Assembly: GCA_026129865.1 (NCBI GenBank)
Contig: JAHCHG010000003.1
Location: forward strand, 62,001 to 126,000
DNA from: Pyrinomonadaceae bacterium
Lineage (GTDB): Bacteria; Acidobacteriota; Blastocatellia; Pyrinomonadales; Pyrinomonadaceae
Length of the DNA stretch: 64,000 nt
Reading direction: 5' to 3'
Shown here: one piece after another, positions 3,428 through 42,333 of the stretch
How the letters are laid out: the number at the start of each line of letters is the position of its first letter
Numbering within the stretch: position 1 is the first letter of the stretch
The notes under the pieces: generated by a model
The model's input: the letters and a program-made list of their open reading frames with translations, nothing else
What the model was told of the DNA's origin: nothing
Databases searched by the model: none
Position numbers and translations under genes: made by a program

Positions 3428-6400
3428 TCGCTTCCTCCATTTCCTGAATTTTCAAGCAAAGCTTCTTTCTTTAATTTTCGCTCGTGAATCCAGTAAAAGA
3501 TCACTGGCGTAACGATCAAAACGTGCAAAAGGCTTGAGATCATTCCGCCTAGAACGGGCGTTGCGAGCGGTTTCATTACTTCCGAACCCGCACTCGAACT
3601 CCACATGATCGGCAAAAGACCGGCGACGATGGTTGAAACGGTCATAACTTTCGGGCGCAATCTTAAAAGTGCGCCTTCGGTGATTGCTTCGAGCAGATCT
3701 TTTCGCGTTAAAATTCCAAGTTCCTTTTTCTTTTTCTCGACCGCTTCTTCCAGATAAATGACCATTACAACGCCCGTCTGCACGGCGGTTCCGAAAAGCG
3801 CGATGAAGCCGACCCAGACCGCGACCGAAAAGTTGTAATCGAGAAACCATAGAAGATAAACTCCGCCGGTCAGCGCAAACGGCACGGCGAGCAAAACGTG
3901 CGCGGCTTCGATCGCGGAATTGTAGGTCAGATAGAGCAAGCCGAAAGTGATGATCAGAACGATTGGAATGACAAGCATCAGACGCTCGCGGGCGCGTTGC
4001 TGGTTTTCAAATTGACCGCTCCAATTGATGTAATAACCCGCCGGAAGCTGAACTTTTTCGACGACCGCTTTGTTTGCTTCTTCGACGAAGCCGACGACAT
4101 CGCGCCCGCGAACATTGAGCAGAACCGTTCCGCGCAAAAGACCATTTTCGCTCTGGATCATTGATGCGCCCGTCGTTGTTCTGATCTCTGCGACCTGCGC
4201 GAGCGGAATTGTTTGTCCGCTTGCCGTTAAGATCGGAAGTTGTCCGATCGCTTCGGGGCTTTCGCGAAATTCCGGCGCGAAGCGAACACGAACCGGAAAA
4301 CGATTTCGTCCTTCGATCGTAACCGAGAGATTTCGTTCGCCGATTCCTGCTTCGATAGAATCCTGAATTGTTCCAACGTCAATTCCGTAACGCGCCGCCG
4401 CCTGACGATTGATGTCAATATCAACATAAGGCGCACCGATGATTTGTTCGGGGTAAACGTCTGCCGCGCCCGGAACTTCTTTGACGATAGCAGCGACCTC
4501 GCGCGAAACTTGTTCGAGTTTTTTTAGATCGTCGCCGAAAATTTTGATTCCGACTTCCGAACGAATTCCCGTCGCAAGCATCTCGATGCGGTTGATGATC
4601 GGCTGCGTCCAGATGTTCGTAACGCCGGGCATTTTCAACTTTGCATCCATTTCTGCGATCAGAGATTGGCGCGTAACTCCCGGTCGCCATTCGCTTTGCG
4701 GTTTCAGATGAATGATCGTTTCATTCATATTGATCGGCGCAGGATCGGTTGAGGTTTCGGCGCGTCCGGCTTTCCCGACCGCCCATTCGACTTCGGGAAA
4801 GGTATTGATAATCTCGTCCTGACGGCTCATTATTTTCAGAGCTTCATCAATCGAAATTGCCGGGTCCGTTACGGGCATGAACATCAGATCGCCTTCATTG
4901 AGCGGCGGCATAAATTCTTTGCCGATGCCCGAACCGAGGAAAACCGCGCCGGAAAATAGAATGACTGCGAGAAGAATTGTCAGTGCGCGATTTTTCAAAG
5001 CCCAATTTAGAGCGGGTTGGTAAAGCCTGTGCAAAAAGCGCATCACGGGATTTGATTGTTCGGAATGAAATTTTCCGCCCAAAAGATATGTGCATAGAAC
5101 CGGAACCAGCGTAACGGCGATAACGGTCGCGCCGATCATCGCAAAAGTTTTCGTAAATGCCAGCGGATGAAAGAGTTTGCCTTCCTGTCCGGTCAGCGAA
5201 AAAACCGGAATAAATGCAAGAATAATGATCGCCATCGAAAAGAAAACGGGTCGCCCGACGAGTTTTGTAGATTCCAAAACAGTCTTCCAGACGAGTTTTC
5301 GATCTTTCGGATCAACGCCGCGTTTTTCCATAAAACGAAATGCGTTTTCCATCACGACGATTCCCGCATCAACCAAAACTCCGATAGCAATCGCAATGCC
5401 GGAAAGCGACATGATATTCGAACTAATTCCCATGTAATGCATGAACAAAAATGAGATCAGCACGGCGAGCGGCAGAGGAATCGTTACGATCAAAATCGAA
5501 CGAAAATGCGCCAGAAATATGATGTGAGCGAGTGTTACGAGAAGAAGTTCTTCAACCAAAGTCCATTTCAGAGTGCTTGTCGCGCGGTTGATGAGCTGCG
5601 TGCGGTCGTAAAACGGCACAACGGAAACGCCTTGAGGCAAGCCGACTTTTAATTCTTCGATCTTCTTTTTGACGGCGTTAATCGTTTCGAGCGTGTTCAC
5701 TCCGTAACGCGCAATGACCACGCCGCCGACGGCTTCTTTGCCGTTTTTATCTAGCGCACCCGTGCGAAATGCGTCGCCGATCTTCACATTTGCAACATTT
5801 TTAACAAAAATCGGCGTTCCGTTTGACTCACCGATGACGATGTTTTCGACATCCGCAGTTGATTCGATCAAACCGATTCCGCGCACGACCGCCCATTCGC
5901 CGGATTGTTCGACGACGTTTCCGCCGACGTTGTTATTCGATCTTTCGACCGCTTCGACAACTTTTGACAGCGGAATATCGAAACCGCGAAGTTTATTCGG
6001 ATCAACATCAACCTGATATTGCTGGACATAACCGCCAACCGAAGCGACTTCCGCCACGCCTGGAACGGAGTTTAATTGATAACGCACAAACCAATCTTGA
6101 AGCGTTCTGAGTTCGCGCAGATTGTGCTGATCGCTTTCGAGCGTGTACCAGAAAATTTGTCCAACGCCCGTCGCATCGGGTCCGAGCGTCGGCGTTACGC
6201 CTTCCGGCATTTGCTTTGTAACCAAATTTAAACGCTCTAAAACCCGCGTCCGAGCCCAATATAGATCAACCGAATCTTCAAAAATGATGTTGATCATCGA
6301 AAAGCTGAACGCCGAACTCGCCCGCACGGTGCGAACGCCGGGAAGTCCCTGCAAATTCGTAACGAGCGGATAAGTTACCTGATCTTCGACTTCCTGCGGC

Positions 6401-7752: not shown

Positions 7753-8562
7753 ATGAAATACGGTTTGATCGCAGGAAATGGTTCTTTCCCGTTTTTGGTG
7801 CTTGACGGCGCCAGAAAACATGGTGTGTCTTTGTCGGTCGTTGCGATCAAAGAAGAAACCGACAAGCAGATTGAAGAAGTCGCGGAGAATATGATCTGGG
7901 TCGGCGTAGGTCATCTCGGCAAGATGATCAAGTTTTTTAAGAAGGAAGGCGTTGAAAAGGCGATAATGGCAGGACAGGTAAAGCATGTTCAGATATTCAG
8001 CGGCGCTTTTCCCGATCTTAGAATGGCGAAAATGCTTTGGAATCTTCCAAAACGGAACACCGATTCGCTGATCGGAGGCATTGCAGCCGAACTTGAAAAA
8101 GAAAATATCGAACTAATCGATTCGACCTTTTTTATAAAAGACCGGCTTGCCGGCGAAGGAGTTTTGTCAAAACGGTCGCCTGATAAGACCGAGCGTGCAA
8201 ATATCGAGTACGGTTTGACGGTAGCAAACGAGATAGCACGCCTCGACCTCGGGCAGACGATTGTCGTTCGCGCCAGCGCCTGTGTTGCAATCGAAGCCAT
8301 GGAAGGAACCGACGAAACGATACTTCGTGCGGGCAAACTTGCCAGGGGAAAACTCACCGTTGTTAAAGTTGCCAAGCCCGATCAGGACATGCGTTTCGAC
8401 GTGCCCGTGGTCGGCGTTCCGACGATCGAAAATATGGTTTCTGCCGGTGCCACCTGTCTTTCGGTAACGTCAGGAAAGACTCTTATTTTCGACCGCGAAA
8501 AAATGCTTGCGCTTGCAGATCGAAATAAAATTTCCGTGGTCGGAACTCCCTCCGAAACTTAA
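7753..8562 (+). CDS. lpxI: UDP-2,3-diacylglucosamine diphosphatase LpxI
   Basis: Cleaves UDP-2,3-diacylglucosamine to lipid X and UMP in lipid A synthesis, the role played by LpxH in enterobacteria. The 269 residues match the LpxI family in length and layout. An N-terminal Rossmann-like half starts with YGLIAGNGSFPFL and contains KAIMAGQVKH. The C-terminal catalytic half contains QTIVVRASACVAIEAMEGTD and a KPDQDMRFDVPVVGVPTIE segment with the conserved acidic residues. Its presence implies an outer membrane with lipid A. It stands alone, divergent from the metal operon. Confidence 0.92.
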   Translation: MKYGLIAGNGSFPFLVLDGARKHGVSLSVVAIKEETDKQIEEVAENMIWVGVGHLGKMIKFFKKEGVEKAIMAGQVKHVQIFSGAFPDLRMAKMLWNLPKRNTDSLIGGIAAELEKENIELIDSTFFIKDRLAGEGVLSKRSPDKTERANIEYGLTVANEIARLDLGQTIVVRASACVAIEAMEGTDETILRAGKLARGKLTVVKVAKPDQDMRFDVPVVGVPTIENMVSAGATCLSVTSGKTLIFDREKMLALADRNKISVVGTPSET

Positions 8563-8691
8563 TCTTGCAGATTATCGTAAAACTCTCGCAACCTAATTCC
8601 CGCAGATTGGAGTCATAAAAGCTTGGACTGCTAACGTTTTGATGTCCAACGGCGCGGTTTAGGCGTCAATGAAACTTTTATCGGAGAAATA

Positions 8692-10347
8692 ATGAGAACT
8701 AATTTATTAAGAAAAAACATACTTTCGCTTGCGTTGATCTTTGCAATTCTGCTTCCCGGATTTGCCGTCGCACAAACCGCGACGAAAGCAAACTCGGCGG
8801 CGCGAAAATCGGCGCAAACTATTACGGCGCAGCAGTTAAAGGAATATTTATACTTCGTCGCATCCGACGCAATGGGCGGTCGCGATACGCCTTCGGACGG
8901 ATTGGATATAACAGCTGAATTTATCGCGTTGATGCTGAAACGGTGGGGATTCAAACCGGCGGGCGACAACGGAACGTTCATGCAGACGATGGCGATGACG
9001 TCAAATCAGGTCGATCCGTCGAAAACCGCTCTTGAGATCGGCGGCAGCAAGATGAAATTCGGCTATCATTTCTTTGCACAGCCGACAGCGGGTGCAGTTT
9101 CAAACGCCCAGATGGTTTTCGCGGGAAACGGCTGGTTGATCAAGAAAAAAGACATCGATCCGCTGAAAGATCTGGACGTAAAAGGCAAGATCGTCGTGAT
9201 CCATAGCGAGACCGATTTTCCCGAAGGCGTCACAATGAAAGATTTTCAGGAAGGAAAGCTCGGTCAATTTGGCGTCGATATTCTTTCCCCGCCGATGTAT
9301 GCTGCATCGAAAGGCGCCGCGGGAATAATCGTAATAGCGAACGAAGATGTTGACCGCCGTTGGGATCTTCATAAAGCGGCAGCCGGAAAAGGACGTGCAA
9401 CGGTCGATAAGCTGGTTAACGAAAACAGACGACGCGGACGCAATTTGCCGACCGTTACGATTTCTCGAGAAGCTGCTGAAAAATTGTTCGCAAGCGAAGA
9501 AAAGCCGATGTCCGAGCTCGCGAAAATTCAGCCGTTCGCAATGAAGTCGACTGCAAGTTTGAATGTGGCGACAAATCCGGTTGTCTTGAAAACCCAAAAT
9601 GTAGTTGCGGTGTGGGAAGGGAGCGATCCGGTTCTGAAGAACGAAATGGTCGCGATCGGCGCGCATTATGACCACGTCGGAACAAATCCGCTGGCGAAAG
9701 GCGATGACAAGATCTGGAACGGTGCCGACGATGACGGTTCGGGAACGGTCGCGGTCCTGGCGATCGCTGAGGCTTTGAAAAATGCTTCGAAACGTCCGAA
9801 ACGTTCGATTCTTTTAGTCTGGCATGCCGGCGAAGAGAAAGGTCTGCTCGGCAGCGAATATTTTAATAAATTTCCGACGGTCGATATTAAGAATGTCGTT
9901 GCACAGTTGAACATTGACATGATCGGTCGCAGCCGAAAAACCGACGATCAGGACCCGAGAAATAAAGAACTTTCCGGCGAAAATACCATCTATGTTATCG
10001 GTTCGGAAATGATGAGTTCGAAGCTTGGCGAGGTTACAAAGGCGACGAACGACGCGTTTCTTAAACTGGAATACGATTACCGATATGACGATCCGAAAGA
10101 TCCGAATCGATTCTTTTTTCGTTCAGATCATTTCAATTATGCGCTAAACGGAATTCCGATCGTTTTCTGGTTTGACGGTGTTCATGAGGATTATCATCAA
10201 GCCGGCGATCACCCGGACAAGATCGATTATGAAAAGATGGAAAAGGTAACTCGAACCATTTATCTAACGATGTGGGAGATTGCCGATTTGAAAGTAAAAC
10301 CGGCGGTTGATAAGCAGCTTCCGAAGGAACTTACCGAAAGAAGGTAA
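8692..10347 (+). CDS. Secreted M28-family zinc aminopeptidase with PA domain
   Basis: Exported metallopeptidase of 551 residues. A clear Sec signal peptide ends at GFAVAQTA. A protease-associated insert lies around 140-300 (KGKIVVIHSETDFPEG, AGIIVIANED). The catalytic domain shows the di-zinc ligands in family order: H in IGAHYDHVG, D in GADDDGSGT, EE in HAGEEKGLLGSEY, D in LNIDMIGR, and a final H in DGVHEDYHQAGD. It probably trims peptides in the periplasm or outside the cell. A strong hairpin terminator follows directly, shared with the convergent gene. Confidence 0.92.
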   Translation: MRTNLLRKNILSLALIFAILLPGFAVAQTATKANSAARKSAQTITAQQLKEYLYFVASDAMGGRDTPSDGLDITAEFIALMLKRWGFKPAGDNGTFMQTMAMTSNQVDPSKTALEIGGSKMKFGYHFFAQPTAGAVSNAQMVFAGNGWLIKKKDIDPLKDLDVKGKIVVIHSETDFPEGVTMKDFQEGKLGQFGVDILSPPMYAASKGAAGIIVIANEDVDRRWDLHKAAAGKGRATVDKLVNENRRRGRNLPTVTISREAAEKLFASEEKPMSELAKIQPFAMKSTASLNVATNPVVLKTQNVVAVWEGSDPVLKNEMVAIGAHYDHVGTNPLAKGDDKIWNGADDDGSGTVAVLAIAEALKNASKRPKRSILLVWHAGEEKGLLGSEYFNKFPTVDIKNVVAQLNIDMIGRSRKTDDQDPRNKELSGENTIYVIGSEMMSSKLGEVTKATNDAFLKLEYDYRYDDPKDPNRFFFRSDHFNYALNGIPIVFWFDGVHEDYHQAGDHPDKIDYEKMEKVTRTIYLTMWEIADLKVKPAVDKQLPKELTERR

Positions 10348-19151: not shown

Positions 19152-19302
19152 CTTGTTTTCCTAATTTGGATGTCGATTAATATATTTGTTATTTGTCCCG
19201 TCATTCTAACACTTGACTAGTCTGCTTTGACAAGTAACCCTTCTGCATATTACGTTTTTATTTTATTTCGAACCGTATTTATTATCAGGAGAATTTTTAG
19301 AA

Positions 19303-30105: not shown

Positions 30106-31062
30106 TCAAGCGGTATCCGCCGGACTTCGCACGCCTAAGCGATGCTGATTGAGAACATGCGTGTAGATCATTGTCGTGGTCAGTTCTTTATGCCCCAAAA
30201 GTTCCTGAATGGTGCGAATATCGTAACCGTCCTGCAAAAGATGTGTTGCGAAAGAATGCCGAAGCGTGTGCGGACTTGCGGTTTTGTTGATTCGGCTTTT
30301 TCGCATAATTTCCTTGAACGGTTTCTGCAGACTCGCGGGCGAAACGTGATGTCTTCCTGTTTTTCCAGTGCGCGGATCTTTGCTCAAACTTTTTGACGGA
30401 AAGACGTATTGCCAGCAAAATTCGCTTTCGGCGTTTGGGTATTTTCTCGCCAGTGCAAAAGGCATTTCCACTCTTCCTAATCCGAGCCGCAAATCTTTTT
30501 CGTGCAGTTTTTTGACAGTTTCGAGTTGTTTTTGGAGCGGTTCGATAAGCTTTGTCGGCAAAACCGTAAATCTGTCATTGCCGCCTTTGCCGTCTCTTAC
30601 GGTAATTTGCCGATAACCGAAGTCCAAATCCTTGACTCTCAACCGCAAGGCTTCCATCAAACGCAAACCCGAACCGTAAAGCAAGTTGGCAATAATCCAA
30701 TTCGTGCCTTTTAATTCTCCTAAAACCGATTTTACTTCTTCTTTTGTTAATACGACCGGAACGCGGCTCGACTTTTTAGCCGGCGTAAATTTATCGAGCC
30801 AGGGAATTTCGACTGATAACACCTCACGGTAGAGAAACAGCAGTGCCGCTAATGCCTGATTTTGCGTCGAAGCCGAAACGGTCTTTTCGACCGCCAAATG
30901 CGATAGAAACGCTTCGATTTCAGCCGCGCCCATTTCTGCCGGATGCCGCACATTGTGAAAAAAGATATACTGCCGAATCCAATAAATATAGCGTTTCTCA
31001 GTTTCATAGCTATAATGCCGAACCCGCATCACGCTCCGCACATTATCAAGCAGCTTTGACAT
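30106..31062 (-). CDS. intI: Integron integrase IntI
   Basis: Tyrosine recombinase of 318 residues that inserts and excises gene cassettes between attI and attC. A core-binding domain (LLDNVRSVMRVRHYSYETEK start, about 1-85) precedes the catalytic domain. Catalytic residues are R134 in GSGLRLMEAL, K159 in DGKGGNDR, H265 and R268 in SPHTLRHS, H291 in LLGH and Y300 in MIYTH. The IntI-specific insert is present at about 195-222 (ALARKYPN...CWQYVFPS), which separates integron integrases from XerC/D. It is read away from the array, as in other integrons. All catalytic residues are intact. Confidence 0.95.
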   Translation of the reverse strand: MSKLLDNVRSVMRVRHYSYETEKRYIYWIRQYIFFHNVRHPAEMGAAEIEAFLSHLAVEKTVSASTQNQALAALLFLYREVLSVEIPWLDKFTPAKKSSRVPVVLTKEEVKSVLGELKGTNWIIANLLYGSGLRLMEALRLRVKDLDFGYRQITVRDGKGGNDRFTVLPTKLIEPLQKQLETVKKLHEKDLRLGLGRVEMPFALARKYPNAESEFCWQYVFPSKSLSKDPRTGKTGRHHVSPASLQKPFKEIMRKSRINKTASPHTLRHSFATHLLQDGYDIRTIQELLGHKELTTTMIYTHVLNQHRLGVRSPADTA

Positions 31063-31237: not shown

Positions 31238-31423
31238 TTAATTGAAACGTATAGTGTTAATTTGCGGCTCAGGCTTCGCCGCACAATCTTTACAAAGAAA
31301 AATTGACTTCGGGAAAGAAAGCCACGGCGAATAAAGAGGAATTTCTTTAGCTTCCCGTTTCTTCATTTGTTTTGCAGGAATCGGTTTTCCGCAATCAGCG
31401 CAATCCTTTTGTGTGTATGACAT
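31238..31423 (-). CDS. Small four-Cys zinc-binding protein, reversed in cassette 1
   Basis: 61 residues with CADCGKPIPAKQ and FLCKDCAAKP: two CxxC pairs 34 residues apart in a zinc-ribbon-like protein. It lies inside the first cassette but is read against the array, so the cassette promoter cannot drive it. A TA-, RNA- or DNA-binding role is not shown. The cassette limits are GTTCGGCGT at 31222 and attC1. Confidence 0.6.
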   Translation of the reverse strand: MSYTQKDCADCGKPIPAKQMKKREAKEIPLYSPWLSFPKSIFLCKDCAAKPEPQINTIRFN

Positions 31424-31442: not shown

Positions 31443-31527
31443 GCCGAACAAATCAATGGACGTGAGGCTTACAAGCTCCCTTGTCAAGGTTCTCGCAGCC
31501 TCGCCCACGTCATCTCGGTCGTTGTGC
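31443..31527 (+). other. attC1
   Basis: R'' GCCGAAC, then AACAAATCAATGGACGTGAG, right arm CCCACGTCATCTCGGTC and R' GTTGTGC. At 85 bp it is shorter than the other complete copies and its central loop differs. Confidence 0.85.
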
Positions 31528-31544
31528 GCTTTCTTTAAAACCTT

Positions 31545-32471
31545 ATGAAATCTATATCTGAACTAGAACACGAAATTCGTGATTTTATTAACAGTCCGCG
31601 AAAACGCTCTGATTTAATCAAAGATTCTGCTGAGTGGTTTAAACTTTGCAGTTCTTTGGATGTAATCGGAGACACAGAACAAGCATTCGACTCATATTTG
31701 AAGATTGATGAGCCAGAATCGGATGGTGAAAAATACTTGAATATTTACGGTGTTCTTCAAGCACTATTTATCCAACAAGACGCAGTTACACATTTATCCG
31801 AAGCATTAGGATTACCATATACAGTTGACCCTTTAATTACCCAAATTCGTGAAATTCGGAACGATAGTTCTGGACACCCAACTAAACGAGGTAAAGGCAG
31901 AGCATTTAATCACATTTCCCGAATCTCTATGGAGCGACATAGCTTTAAGTTGATGACAACTTACCCGAACGCAGACCCTAAATTTACAGATGTTGACGTA
32001 CCAAAGTTAATCGAATCTCAAAGAAGCATTCTGCAAAGCACTCTTTCAAACGTAATTGACAACTTGAGAGAAGAAGAAATGGAACATCGTGAAAAACACC
32101 GAAACAAAAAGTTAGTTGATACATTCACTTCTACAGGCTATTACTGCGAGAAAATTGCGGAAGCCCTTGGTGGAGGTCTGCCGCCTGAATTTGGCGCATC
32201 TCTTCTGAAATCAATGATTGATAATATTGAAGAATTTAAGTCTGAACTTAGAAACAGAGGAGTTCTTGAGGCATATGAAGACTCAGTAGGTTATTATTCA
32301 AACCTTTTGGAATATCCGTTGAATGAGTTGCATAATTATTTCACTAATTCGTCTGAAACAAAACTGAATGAAAAGGACGCAGAAATTTTCTTATCCTTTA
32401 TTCGTAAAAATATGGATGTAATGGCTCAAATAGCCAACGAACTTGATGAAGAATATGAAGCCGATGTGTAA
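31545..32471 (+). CDS. Cassette 2: HEPN-motif protein
   Basis: 308 residues, mostly helical, no signal peptide. REIRNDSSGHPTK contains R105-x5-H111, the R-x4-6-H signature of HEPN ribonucleases, in the expected context of a helix starting with an acidic/Arg turn and followed by N-D. The rest matches no family I recognise. Acidic coiled-coil helices continue to the end (DEEYEADV). The gene is visibly AT-richer than the core genes, as expected for imported cassettes. HEPN proteins are often toxins or abortive-infection effectors; no antitoxin gene shares the cassette. Confidence 0.65.
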   Translation: MKSISELEHEIRDFINSPRKRSDLIKDSAEWFKLCSSLDVIGDTEQAFDSYLKIDEPESDGEKYLNIYGVLQALFIQQDAVTHLSEALGLPYTVDPLITQIREIRNDSSGHPTKRGKGRAFNHISRISMERHSFKLMTTYPNADPKFTDVDVPKLIESQRSILQSTLSNVIDNLREEEMEHREKHRNKKLVDTFTSTGYYCEKIAEALGGGLPPEFGASLLKSMIDNIEEFKSELRNRGVLEAYEDSVGYYSNLLEYPLNELHNYFTNSSETKLNEKDAEIFLSFIRKNMDVMAQIANELDEEYEADV

Positions 32472-32499
32472 AAGAAATGTTATTCCTATTTCACGACGC

Positions 32500-32613
32500 G
32501 CACAACAAATCAATGGACGTGAGGGCGAAAAAGCGACTTTCTTATCAACATTTTTCGTTTAACTCAGAATTGCGTGGTAGCGGTTTCGCCCCACGTCATC
32601 TCAATCGTTATGT
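32500..32613 (+). other. attC2
   Basis: R'' GCACAAC; extended to GCGCACAAC it is the exact complement of the first nine bases of cassette 2 (GTTGTGCGC). Arms AACAAATCAATGGACGTGAG and CCCACGTCATCTCAATC; R' GTTATGT. Confidence 0.92.
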
Positions 32614-33671: not shown

Positions 33672-33787
33672 CTGTCGAACAAACCAATGGACGTGAGGCG
33701 GAAACAGCGACTTTGTTATCAGCGTTCTCCGTTAAATTTTAGCGGGTCTTCTGGCGGTTTCCGCCCACGTCATCTCAATCGTTGGGC
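33672..33787 (+). other. attC4
   Basis: CTGTCGAAC is the exact complement of the opening GTTCGACAG of cassette 4. The left arm is AACAAACCAATGGACGTGAG; R' GTTGGGC. Confidence 0.92.
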
Positions 33788-34292: not shown

Positions 34293-34406
34293 GCCCAACA
34301 AATCAATGGGCGTGAGGGCGAAACAGCGACTTTCTTATCAACGGCTTTTCTTTAACTCGGAGTTGCGCGTAGGCGGTTTCGCCCCACGTCATCTCAATCG
34401 TTGCGA
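34293..34406 (+). other. attC5
   Basis: ATACGCCCAAC (34289-34299) is the exact 11-base complement of GTTGGGCGTAT opening cassette 5. R' is GTTGCGA. Confidence 0.93.
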
Positions 34407-34419
34407 AAAGCATTAAAAC

Positions 34420-34686
34420 ATGAGCGTAAAAAATTTGAAGAAGCAATCGGAAACAGATTGGGCGAGAATTGACCGAATGACGGACGAGGACATTGACACT
34501 TCCGACAGTCCGCCGTTAGACGACGATTTTTTTGCTAGAGCTGAATGGCGGATGCCCGAAAAAAACAGAGCAGTTACATTGAGCGTAGATTCGGAAGTTT
34601 TGAAATGGTTTGAAGGACAAGGCGCGGACTTTCAGCAGCGCGTCAACGCGGCGTTAAAAATTTACGCCGAAGCACATCAAGAATAA
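34420..34686 (+). CDS. Cassette 6: BrnA-family antitoxin (orphan)
   Basis: 88 residues. The C-terminal half, VTLSVDSEVLKWFEGQGADF followed by QQRVNAALKIYAE, is the BrnA/DUF4415 DNA-binding ribbon-helix-helix pattern that autorepresses brnTA operons. The N-terminus has the acidic DEDIDTSDSPPLDDDFF lead typical of these antitoxins. No BrnT-like toxin is in the same cassette; the one BrnT lies 7.4 kb away in cassette 13 with a different partner. It could be an anti-addiction antitoxin or a leftover. Confidence 0.7.
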   Translation: MSVKNLKKQSETDWARIDRMTDEDIDTSDSPPLDDDFFARAEWRMPEKNRAVTLSVDSEVLKWFEGQGADFQQRVNAALKIYAEAHQE

Positions 34687-34705: not shown

Positions 34706-34818
34706 ATCGAACAAATCAATGGACGTGAGGGCGAAACAGCGACTTTGTTATCAGCGTCTTTGGTGAACTCGGAGTTGCGCGGTGGCGGTTTCCGCCCACG
34801 TCATCTCAATCGTTCGAC
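34706..34818 (+). other. attC6
   Basis: Full-length site with the usual arms and R' GTTCGAC. Its R'' region (GCCATCGAAC) is not complementary to the start of cassette 6 (GTTGCGAAAAGC), unlike most sites in the array. Confidence 0.88.
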
Positions 34819-34892: not shown

Positions 34893-35258
34893 ATGCGACT
34901 GCCAAACGGAGAAAATGCCATTGTAGACATTCGCAAACTGACTAAATACTGCTTGGACATTGATAATCCGCGAGGCAGCCACAAGGCTAGCGTTTTTGCA
35001 GCGGCTTTAGGAATAACGGTTGAAAACGCCGCAGAGTTGCGCGAAAAATTGCTTGAAATTGCAAAAACGACCGAAACGGCGGTTTTAGGAGAACCCGACA
35101 TTTACGGACAGCGTTACACCGTAGATTTCGAGTTGACGACAAATATCGGAAGTGCGCCCGTCAGATGCGGTTGGATTATCTTGCACAGTGAAAGCATTCC
35201 GCGACTGACGACCTGTTTTGTATTGAAAAGGAGGCAAAATGCAAAAGAAACAAATTGA
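34893..35258 (+). CDS. Cassette 7: DUF6883-type protein
   Basis: 121 residues with the DUF6883 pattern: VDIRKLTKYCLDIDNPRGSH, KASVFAAALGITVENAAELR, then YGQRYTVDFELTT, and GWIILHSESIPRLTTCFVL at the end. DUF6883 has been seen as a toxin-like domain in polymorphic and small bicistronic loci. Its 3' end overlaps the next gene by 20 bases, so the two are translated together. No signal peptide. Confidence 0.75.
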   Translation: MRLPNGENAIVDIRKLTKYCLDIDNPRGSHKASVFAAALGITVENAAELREKLLEIAKTTETAVLGEPDIYGQRYTVDFELTTNIGSAPVRCGWIILHSESIPRLTTCFVLKRRQNAKETN

Positions 35259-35469
35259 TTTGCTGGATACGGTAGCATTGCTTGAAGATTTGCCGCAAAG
35301 AGGCTTGGAGCGCGGCGAAGTCGGAACTGTGGTTGAAGTTCTCGCACCGGAAGTTTATGAGGTCGAGTTTAGCGACGACGAAGGACAAACGTATGCACAG
35401 TTTGCATTGAGAAGCGAGCAAATAGTTGCGCTTCACAATCAAGGTGAAGGATTAAAATTAGCGGCGTGA
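35239..35469 (+). CDS. Cassette 7: DUF4926-type protein
   Basis: 76 residues. LLDTVALLEDLPQRGLERGE, then VGTVVEVLAPEVYEVEF and a SDDEG turn, is the DUF4926 pattern. This acidic beta protein is frequently encoded next to DUF6883. The start overlaps the DUF6883 gene and is preceded by AAGGAGGCAAA, an excellent ribosome-binding site. It probably acts as the partner (immunity or antitoxin) of the upstream protein; this is inference from the overlap and pairing. Confidence 0.72.
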   Translation: MQKKQIDLLDTVALLEDLPQRGLERGEVGTVVEVLAPEVYEVEFSDDEGQTYAQFALRSEQIVALHNQGEGLKLAA

Positions 35470-35483
35470 AACGTGAAACCGAT

Positions 35484-35597
35484 GTCGAACAAATCAATCG
35501 ACGTGAAGGCGAAACAGCGACTTTGTTATTCGGCTTGTCCGTTTTTCCTGACCTTGCGTGGCGGCGGTTTCGCCCCACGTCATCTCAAACGTTATGC
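35484..35597 (+). other. attC7
   Basis: GATGTCGAAC (35481-35490) is the exact ten-base complement of GTTCGACATC opening cassette 7. R' GTTATGC. Confidence 0.93.
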
Positions 35598-40432: not shown

Positions 40433-40546
40433 GGCTGACAAGTTATTGGACGTGAGGGCGAAACAGCGGCTTTCTTATCAATGGAATTTGGTAAACTCGT
40501 AGTTGCGCGGTGGCGGCTTCGCCCCCCGTCATCTCAATCGTCAGCC
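40433..40546 (+). other. attC10
   Basis: R'' GGCTGAC and R' GTCAGCC, mutually complementary. Both have GTC/GAC in place of the usual GTT/AAC. The arms are TTATTGGACGTGAGGGCGAA and CCCCCCGTCATCTCAATC. Confidence 0.85.
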
Positions 40547-41671: not shown

Positions 41672-41784
41672 GTCGAACAGCTCAATGGACGTGAGGGTGA
41701 AACAGCGGCTTTCTTATCAAACTTGCGTGGGAAATTCAGCTTGCGTTACGACTGTTTCGCCCCAAGTCATCTCAATCGTTCGGC
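41672..41784 (+). other. attC12
   Basis: R'' GTCGAAC, left arm AACAGCTCAATGGACGTGAG, right arm CCCAAGTCATCTCAATC, R' GTTCGGC. Confidence 0.9.
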
Positions 41785-41843: not shown

Positions 41844-42116
41844 GTGCGGTTTGATTGGGACAAAAATGAAGCGGCGAGCAATCTCGCTAAACACCAAGTT
41901 TCGTTTGAGGAAGCCGCGACAGTTTTCGGCGACCCGCTTTCAGATACGTTTGATGATCCGGATCACTCCGCAGAGGAACGGCGTTTTTTAATTATTGGAC
42001 ATTCTGAAAACGGCAGACTATTGTTTGTGTCTCACACGGACGATTGCGAAACCGTCCGAATAATCAGCGCGAGAGAACCGACGCACGGCGAGCGAGACTC
42101 GTATGAACAAGGATAA
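41844..42116 (+). CDS. brnT: Cassette 13: BrnT-family ribonuclease toxin
   Basis: 90 residues from a GTG start. MRFDWDKNEAASNLAKHQVS, FEEAATVFGDPLSDTF, DDPDHSAEERRFLIIGHSEN and SAREPTHGERDSYE cover the whole BrnT toxin, which cleaves RNA in a RelE-like fold. The next gene overlaps its end by 14 bases in another frame, the usual toxin-antitoxin layout. Confidence 0.88.
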   Translation: MRFDWDKNEAASNLAKHQVSFEEAATVFGDPLSDTFDDPDHSAEERRFLIIGHSENGRLLFVSHTDDCETVRIISAREPTHGERDSYEQG

Positions 42117-42333
42117 AACTGAAAATTTGAAAGACGAAATGCGTCCCGAATATGATTTGTCAAAACTGACCGGTAGAGTTCGCGGCAAATATGTCGAACG
42201 TTACCAGGCGGGAACAAATCTTGTGCTTTTGGAGTCAGATGTGCGGGAAGCGTTTCCAGACGCAGAAGCCGTTAATGAAGCGCTGCGAATGCTAATGAAA
42301 GTTGCTAATCGTCAAATTCAAAAACAGGCATGA
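42103..42333 (+). CDS. Cassette 13: antitoxin candidate paired with BrnT
   Basis: 76 residues: DEMRPEYDLSKLTGRVRGKY, VERYQAGTNLVLLESDVREA and FPDAEAVNEALRMLM. The C-terminal helix-turn pattern with NEALR is shared by small antitoxins of several RelE/HigB-like toxins and differs from the BrnA pattern in cassette 6. The overlap with brnT supports a toxin-antitoxin pair. Confidence 0.75.
   Translation: MNKDKTENLKDEMRPEYDLSKLTGRVRGKYVERYQAGTNLVLLESDVREAFPDAEAVNEALRMLMKVANRQIQKQA

Follow-up and report, generated by a model that had tools for sequence, protein, structure and literature searches.

A candidate HEPN-fold ribonuclease family carried as a single-gene integron cassette

Results

The 64,000-nucleotide stretch of Pyrinomonadaceae DNA analysed here, which we call the window, contains an integron with at least six attC sites of 87–114 nt each behind its integrase gene, intI. 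One cassette of this array holds a single gene, which encodes a 308-aa protein with HEPN-like features. The features discussed below are these:

30106-31062, minus strand: integron integrase gene intI (TIGR02249, 460 bits; cut-off 265)
31443-31529, plus strand: attC upstream of the HEPN-like gene cassette, 87 nt
31522-32607, plus strand: integron cassette, bounded by the G/TT points of two attC sites, with the 7-mers GTTGTGC and GCACAAC
31545-32471, plus strand: HEPN-like cassette gene, 308 aa, with an N-terminal HEPN-like domain and a C-terminal helical bundle
31626-32099, plus strand: predicted HEPN-like core, residues 28-185 (AlphaFold2, pLDDT 93.0 and 91.2)
31857-31877, plus strand: motif R105-N-D-S-S-G-H111
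32106-32468, plus strand: predicted C-terminal helical bundle, residues 188-308, absent from short family members
32500-32613, plus strand: attC of the HEPN-like gene cassette, 114 nt, bottom-strand hairpin z -3.4
33674-33787, plus strand: attC of a later cassette
34293-34406, plus strand: attC of a later cassette
34706-34818, plus strand: attC of a later cassette
35484-35597, plus strand: attC of a later cassette

A first-pass annotation had described the gene as the only one in its cassette, and every element of that description holds. The 308-aa reading frame lies exactly at 31545-32471 on the plus strand, intI and six attC repeats are present, and the 7-mers at the cassette boundaries are reverse complements. 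Specifically, the GTTGTGC at the 5' end (31521) is the exact reverse complement of the GCACAAC at the 3' end (32500), as expected for both ends of one circular cassette. The cassette contains no second open reading frame (ORF) of at least 50 aa on either strand, and so no protein partner of that size, such as an MNT antitoxin, beside the HEPN-like gene. The DNA just upstream of the gene shows no sigma-70-like promoter, and in the region such promoters are no more numerous than in shuffles.

The array extends well past this cassette. Bottom-strand folds of the six attC sites have z values of -1.1 to -3.4, and more attC pieces lie near 40520, 41676-41780 and 42432, against 0 such matches in 100 shuffles. 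The neighbours of the HEPN-like cassette are toxin-antitoxin-like and unrecognised cassettes; no recognised defence gene was seen adjoining it in the window array, and its part of the array holds no R-M genes. Several other genes here merit mention in their own right. A BrnA-antitoxin-like gene (PF14384) occupies 34420-34686, with no BrnT seen beside it, and further on an ORF at 41844-42116, BrnT-like by eye, is overlapped by a small ORF (42103-42333) that, also by eye, resembles a second BrnA. Overlapping DUF6883 and DUF4926 genes at 34893-35469 form a two-gene cassette, perhaps encoding a pair of toxin-immunity type. The stretch from intI to the first attC contains a 61-aa reverse-strand ORF (31238-31423) whose match to a dksA/traR-type zinc finger is weak and under the cut-off. 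Elsewhere in the genome, contig C18 carries attC-like 3' ends of the window type near 19219, 163151, 163957 and 165998, and cassettes may therefore also be present away from the window array.

Library searches bear out the earlier statement that the protein matches no recognised family. Pfam, PADLOC, NCBIfam and PHROGs gave nothing convincing for the 308-aa protein, and the first three gave nothing convincing for 25 members of the family alignment. Among the Pfam matches listed for those members (the best 25 of 30 families) there was no HEPN model; PADLOC models returned 0 families for the window protein, and their best stray match (E 0.011) fell in one of the 25 members. We rejected the Pfam matches TcaA_2nd (E 0.0033), Htt_N-HEAT and DUF1798, which lie below curated cut-offs where these are present, and phrog_36524 of PHROGs (E 0.021); all of them touch helical stretches. 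PDB sequence searches with single members and with profiles returned no HEPN entry. For 3JRT, the PDB entry of the integron-cassette HEPN protein Vpc_cass2, two family profiles gave no sequence match at E <= 10, and 3JRT is not among the best 50 structure matches listed. Searches of the open-licence literature, by topic in listings and by protein accession, found nothing about this family.

What first pointed to HEPN was an R105-x5-H111 motif within RNDSSGH, and this motif is present as claimed (31857-31877). Strings of this kind arise readily, and the protein has three Rx4-6H strings, starting at R105, R126 and R175. Shuffled versions of the protein carry 1.19 on average, and 17% of them have one with N, D or H after the arginine. 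Because 72% of shuffles carry at least one Rx4-6H string, the motif alone is not evidence. Read in a single sequence it would be no more than chance, and it is conservation across the family that serves as the evidence.

That conservation is strong. In an alignment of 36 family proteins from many phyla, R105 is kept in 36/36 and H111 in 35/36, with the spacing x5, and the polar position after the arginine, residue 106, is N in 34/36 and H in 2/36. The D79 position is D in 34/36 members, with one E and one Q; D43 and Q78 (36/36 each) and G110 and P112 (33/36 each) are conserved as well. Neither of the remaining Rx4-6H strings is conserved (H132 in 2/36, R175 in 8/36). The alignment leaves out L064 (E 9.4e-4, lying opposite a glutamate-synthase-like ORF), the contig-end fragment L033, and L001, L002, L003, L032 and L035-L057, which repeat genes already counted; the near-identical L004 and L018 were both retained. 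Only L009 (5902-6879), a member from the window's own taxonomic family, departs at H111, where it has a tyrosine. With Y at the putative catalytic histidine position, L009 is a candidate for a natural inactive form. By eye, its gene lies near a transposase-like gene.

The predicted structure arranges the conserved residues as in HEPN proteins. The full-length AlphaFold2 model, from 25 aligned members, has a pLDDT of 93.0 and a pTM of 0.83, and a model of the N-terminal domain only has 91.2 and 0.86. Core helices are predicted at 28-53, 60-87, 96-108 and 152-185, with strands within 113-151 that make a beta-hairpin after the motif. R105 is placed close to where the third core helix ends, H111 three residues past that helix in a loop, and the conserved acidic D79 in the second core helix (60-87). 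As set out in PMC3710099, HEPN proteins have an Rx4-6H motif with a polar N, D or H after the arginine, situated at the end of helix 3 or in the loop to helix 4, and the second helix of HEPN RNases often bears a conserved acidic residue. In motif, polar residue, acidic residue and order of helices the model agrees with this description. The mere closeness of R105 and H111 in the predicted fold has little discriminating power, since the two are six residues apart at a helix end.

Comparison of the model with known HEPN structures is suggestive. Against PDB chains, the N-terminal domain matched the HEPN toxins 8xdj (Z 6.6, rmsd 3.7, 113 aligned, rank 5), 8yuf (Z 6.5, rmsd 3.6, 111 aligned, rank 7) and 8xeh (Z 6.3, rmsd 3.5, 108 aligned, rank 9), all three alignments lying inside residues 31-173 of the model, as well as the endoribonuclease RnlA (6y2r; Z 5.2, rmsd 3.6, 102 aligned, rank 13). 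Unrelated helical chains scored level with the HEPN toxins in the same comparison, the top row reaching Z 7.5, so the agreement with known HEPN proteins is weak. Foldseek gave no match at E <= 0.001 for either the full-length or the N-domain model. Full-length fold matches to designed bundles, GPCR fusions and the like are dominated by the C-terminal bundle, and we set them aside as a common arrangement rather than kinship.

Profile comparison points the same way. Against HepT-like sequences the family scored 22.1, a value that 0/100 column shuffles reached (maximum 21.0), with the RN of the family aligned on the RN of HepT; in absolute terms this match is weak (HH probability 6%, E 0.006 for one comparison). 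Two other candidate parent families were tried in the N-domain comparison and not kept, DUF4145 (score 17.0, reversed control 13.2) and AbiU2 (14.5, reversed control 12.7). The method is low-powered, since even the known families HepT, DUF4145 and AbiU2 go undetected when compared with one another. Nor did it support a second, degenerate HEPN domain in the C-terminal half, where the N-versus-C profile score of 12.2 compares with a mean of 11.2 and a maximum of 15.7 in 50 shuffles. The first-pass interpretation is partly borne out. The conserved motif and the predicted helix layout support an HEPN ribonuclease, and the structural and profile matches agree but weakly; in the fold comparison that the annotation had proposed, the helix layout fits, and HEPN toxins score no better than unrelated helical proteins.

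Members of the family are rare and unevenly spread. Scanning genome contigs from 84,980 species with a profile found 25 loci, plasmid records gave three more, and whole-genome searches added a further set. Members span Acidobacteriota, Chloroflexota, Thermodesulfobacteriota, Verrucomicrobiota, Planctomycetota, Pseudomonadota, Balneolota, Fibrobacterota, Patescibacteria and others. Close to home the family occurs in 2/60 relatives and 4/297 genomes of the phylum, the window genome included in both counts. The phylum of the Alteromonas relative gave 7 matches in 398 genomes, one of which was rejected to leave six, two of them already known; that of the Magasanikbacteria relative gave 1/286, the centre genome itself. 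The phage collection and the viral contigs searched yielded no homologue.

The family tree unites members across phyla, for example Pelobacter (Thermodesulfobacteriota) with Alteromonas profundi at support 100/99; contamination of MAGs could account for single cross-phylum cases, but hardly for the whole pattern. An integron integrase above cut-off is present in 13/30 family-carrying genomes or records and in 0/14 controls, which were not taxon-matched. Exact cassette boundary pairs occur in 3/28 loci (the window, L014 and L015). A separate automatic attC test on 28 loci was too strict and had no background rate, and serves as a hint only. Members L022, L029, L030, L031, L005, L061 and L063 are short, stopping after the HEPN part at ~180-200 aa. 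Because several members end there, the C-terminal bundle is an accessory part. One short member, the 179-aa protein of L061 (1450-1989), lies by eye between hisB-like and hisH/hisA-like genes, an odd site for a toxin-like gene.

The settings of relatives include cassettes, type I R-M operons and the vicinity of other defence genes. In two Fibrobacter MAGs (L023 and L026) the family gene is followed, within one operon, by HsdS- and HsdM-like genes; in L026 an HsdR-like gene lies two genes upstream, and in L023 the contig ends within the upstream gene. The L026 operon also encodes two uncharacterised proteins (5008-5964 and 8183-8944) that are conserved between the two Fibrobacter MAGs and have no Pfam match. 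Elsewhere, a type III restriction-like helicase (REase_III) and a Shedu-like (SduA-like) gene precede the family gene (L028), and nearby genes include an EcoRI-type methylase (L027), AbiLi/AbiLii (L013), SIR2-HerA (L016), two TIR proteins (L014) and an annotated SIR2 protein (L004). Defence neighbours thus occur in 8/28 loci, as picked by eye and without a background rate. Two further neighbours were scanned and gave no match. An XRE-type HTH regulator gene overlaps the start codon of the family gene in L025. When neighbours were compared all against all, the only shared families came from near-identical or closely related loci, or were common genes.

Discussion

We propose that this cassette carries a member of an unnamed family of HEPN-fold ribonucleases that most likely acts as a phage-triggered abortive-infection effector, a reading to which we assign a probability of about 0.58. 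Abortive-infection defence is made plausible by the neighbours of relatives and by precedent. The analysis establishes the cassette, the conserved motif, the predicted domain layout, the patchy distribution over phyla and the defence genes next to some relatives; from there we infer ribonuclease activity, dimerisation, the role of the C-terminal bundle, the trigger and the phage target. Residues ~28-185 would be the catalytic HEPN domain of a metal-independent endoribonuclease, which most likely dimerises and so joins two R105/H111 sites in one cleft. The C-terminal bundle (188-308) probably keeps this domain silent and probably senses the trigger, for which something made by the phage, or damage that it causes, is most likely. 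Once activated, the enzyme would cut cellular RNA and growth would stop, leaving the phage unable to multiply. A more elaborate version, to which we give a fairly low probability, makes the family a widely transferred, hitherto unnamed immune system of one protein whose small size lets it move as a one-gene cassette. The bundle would both restrain the HEPN RNase and directly recognise a phage component, relatives in R-M operons would form a second line behind restriction, and relatives of ~180-200 aa would use separate sensors.

The protein could instead be a helical bundle with no relation to HEPN, its R-x5-H kept for some other reason; Foldseek gave no significant match, HEPN rows tied with unrelated helical proteins, and the best 25 of 30 Pfam families for the 25 members include no HEPN model. 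Yet the motif, its polar N, the acidic residue of the second helix and the order of the helices, taken together, fit the HEPN rules, and the best profile match sets RN on RN; by our estimate this is the least probable account. We also regard as improbable, if slightly less so, an HEPN-fold domain that binds RNA or protein without cutting and keeps its motif for binding. Non-catalytic HEPN domains are described in PMC3710099, and one member has Y in place of H111. However, the same source holds HEPN domains likely to be non-catalytic when they lack the conserved charged and polar residues, and here both motif residues persist in 35/36 members over great distances.

Two other accounts accept the ribonuclease and differ in what it is for. 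The gene could be the toxin half of a toxin-antitoxin pair, its antitoxin encoded elsewhere, an RNA, or a small unseen peptide. HepT-type HEPN toxins act with an antitoxin (PMC7641770), the XRE-type HTH gene of L025 overlaps the start of the family gene, and the window array contains a BrnA-like antitoxin gene. But no ORF of at least 50 aa shares the cassette, and the neighbour analysis turned up no shared families except common genes and those from near-identical or closely related loci; we think a pair unlikely. The closest rival to abortive infection, with a small but real chance of being correct, is that the RNase induces dormancy under general stress, not phage attack, lowering translation and aiding survival. 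This was proposed in 2013 for the integron family of PDB 3JRT (PMC3710099, section 14), and the same RNase features would serve it. Phage defence nevertheless fits better with the settings of relatives, which include type I R-M operons and neighbouring SIR2-HerA, AbiL, TIR and Shedu-like genes.

Integron cassette genes mostly have no assigned function, but integrons are now known to carry anti-phage cassettes. According to a recent review (PMC12409362), at least 16 of 179 Vibrio cholerae cassettes have anti-phage activity, as do 9 of 57 tested V. parahaemolyticus cassettes. The window gene is a directly testable candidate defence cassette outside Vibrio, in which R105 and H111 are the two residues to mutate. 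As for HEPN proteins in integron cassettes, these were already described in 2013 (PMC3710099; Vpc_cass2, PDB 3JRT, PMC3548836). Because the window family is absent from the four libraries searched and gives no 3JRT sequence match, it is most likely a new family of that known kind. The alignment could be adopted by defence-gene libraries, since none of the four used here holds the family.

Among known HEPN systems, those linked to restriction offer one parallel. PrrC-PrrI and other R-M-linked HEPN proteins (PMC3710099, section 10) recall the family genes set amid hsdR-, hsdS- and hsdM-like genes in two Fibrobacter MAGs; no ABC ATPase domain was found in this family, and no R-M genes share the window copy's part of the array. 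Csx1 is described, in the same source, as having a beta-hairpin directly after Rx4-6H, and strands are predicted at that place here too; the window protein gives no Csx1/CARF family match in Pfam or PADLOC, and no CRISPR link was seen. HepT (HEPN/MNT, PF01934; 8xdj, 8yuf, 8xeh) supplies the closest known-HEPN structures among the matches listed (Z 6.3-6.6) and the best profile match of the three HEPN families tried, whereas the window protein has neither a Pfam match nor a partner ORF in its cassette and carries extra strands after the motif as well as the C-terminal bundle.

Two further precedents are single-gene systems. Vpc_cass2 (PDB 3JRT) is an HEPN-type four-helix protein from a single-gene integron cassette and a homodimer in the crystal (PMC3548836, PMC3710099), and the window protein likewise appears to be HEPN-type in a single-gene integron cassette. 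The quoted residue numbers Arg103 and His109 would give the spacing R-x5-H for Vpc_cass2 as well. The two differ in their additions: 3JRT is described as having two helical extensions between helices 3 and 4, whereas the window protein is predicted to have strands after the motif and a C-terminal bundle. Tha, from Staphylococcus aureus prophages, is a 301-aa single-protein HEPN system with the motif R265NSIMH270; production of a phage tail protein turns it into a non-specific RNase, and its anti-phage action has been shown experimentally (PMC11087260). The window protein resembles it in being a single protein of ~300 aa with an HEPN-like domain and an R-N-x-H type motif, but the HEPN domain of Tha is C-terminal (184-296) with R-x4-H, and the HEPN-like domain of the window protein is N-terminal with R-x5-H. 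Tha is the nearest tested precedent for the function proposed here.
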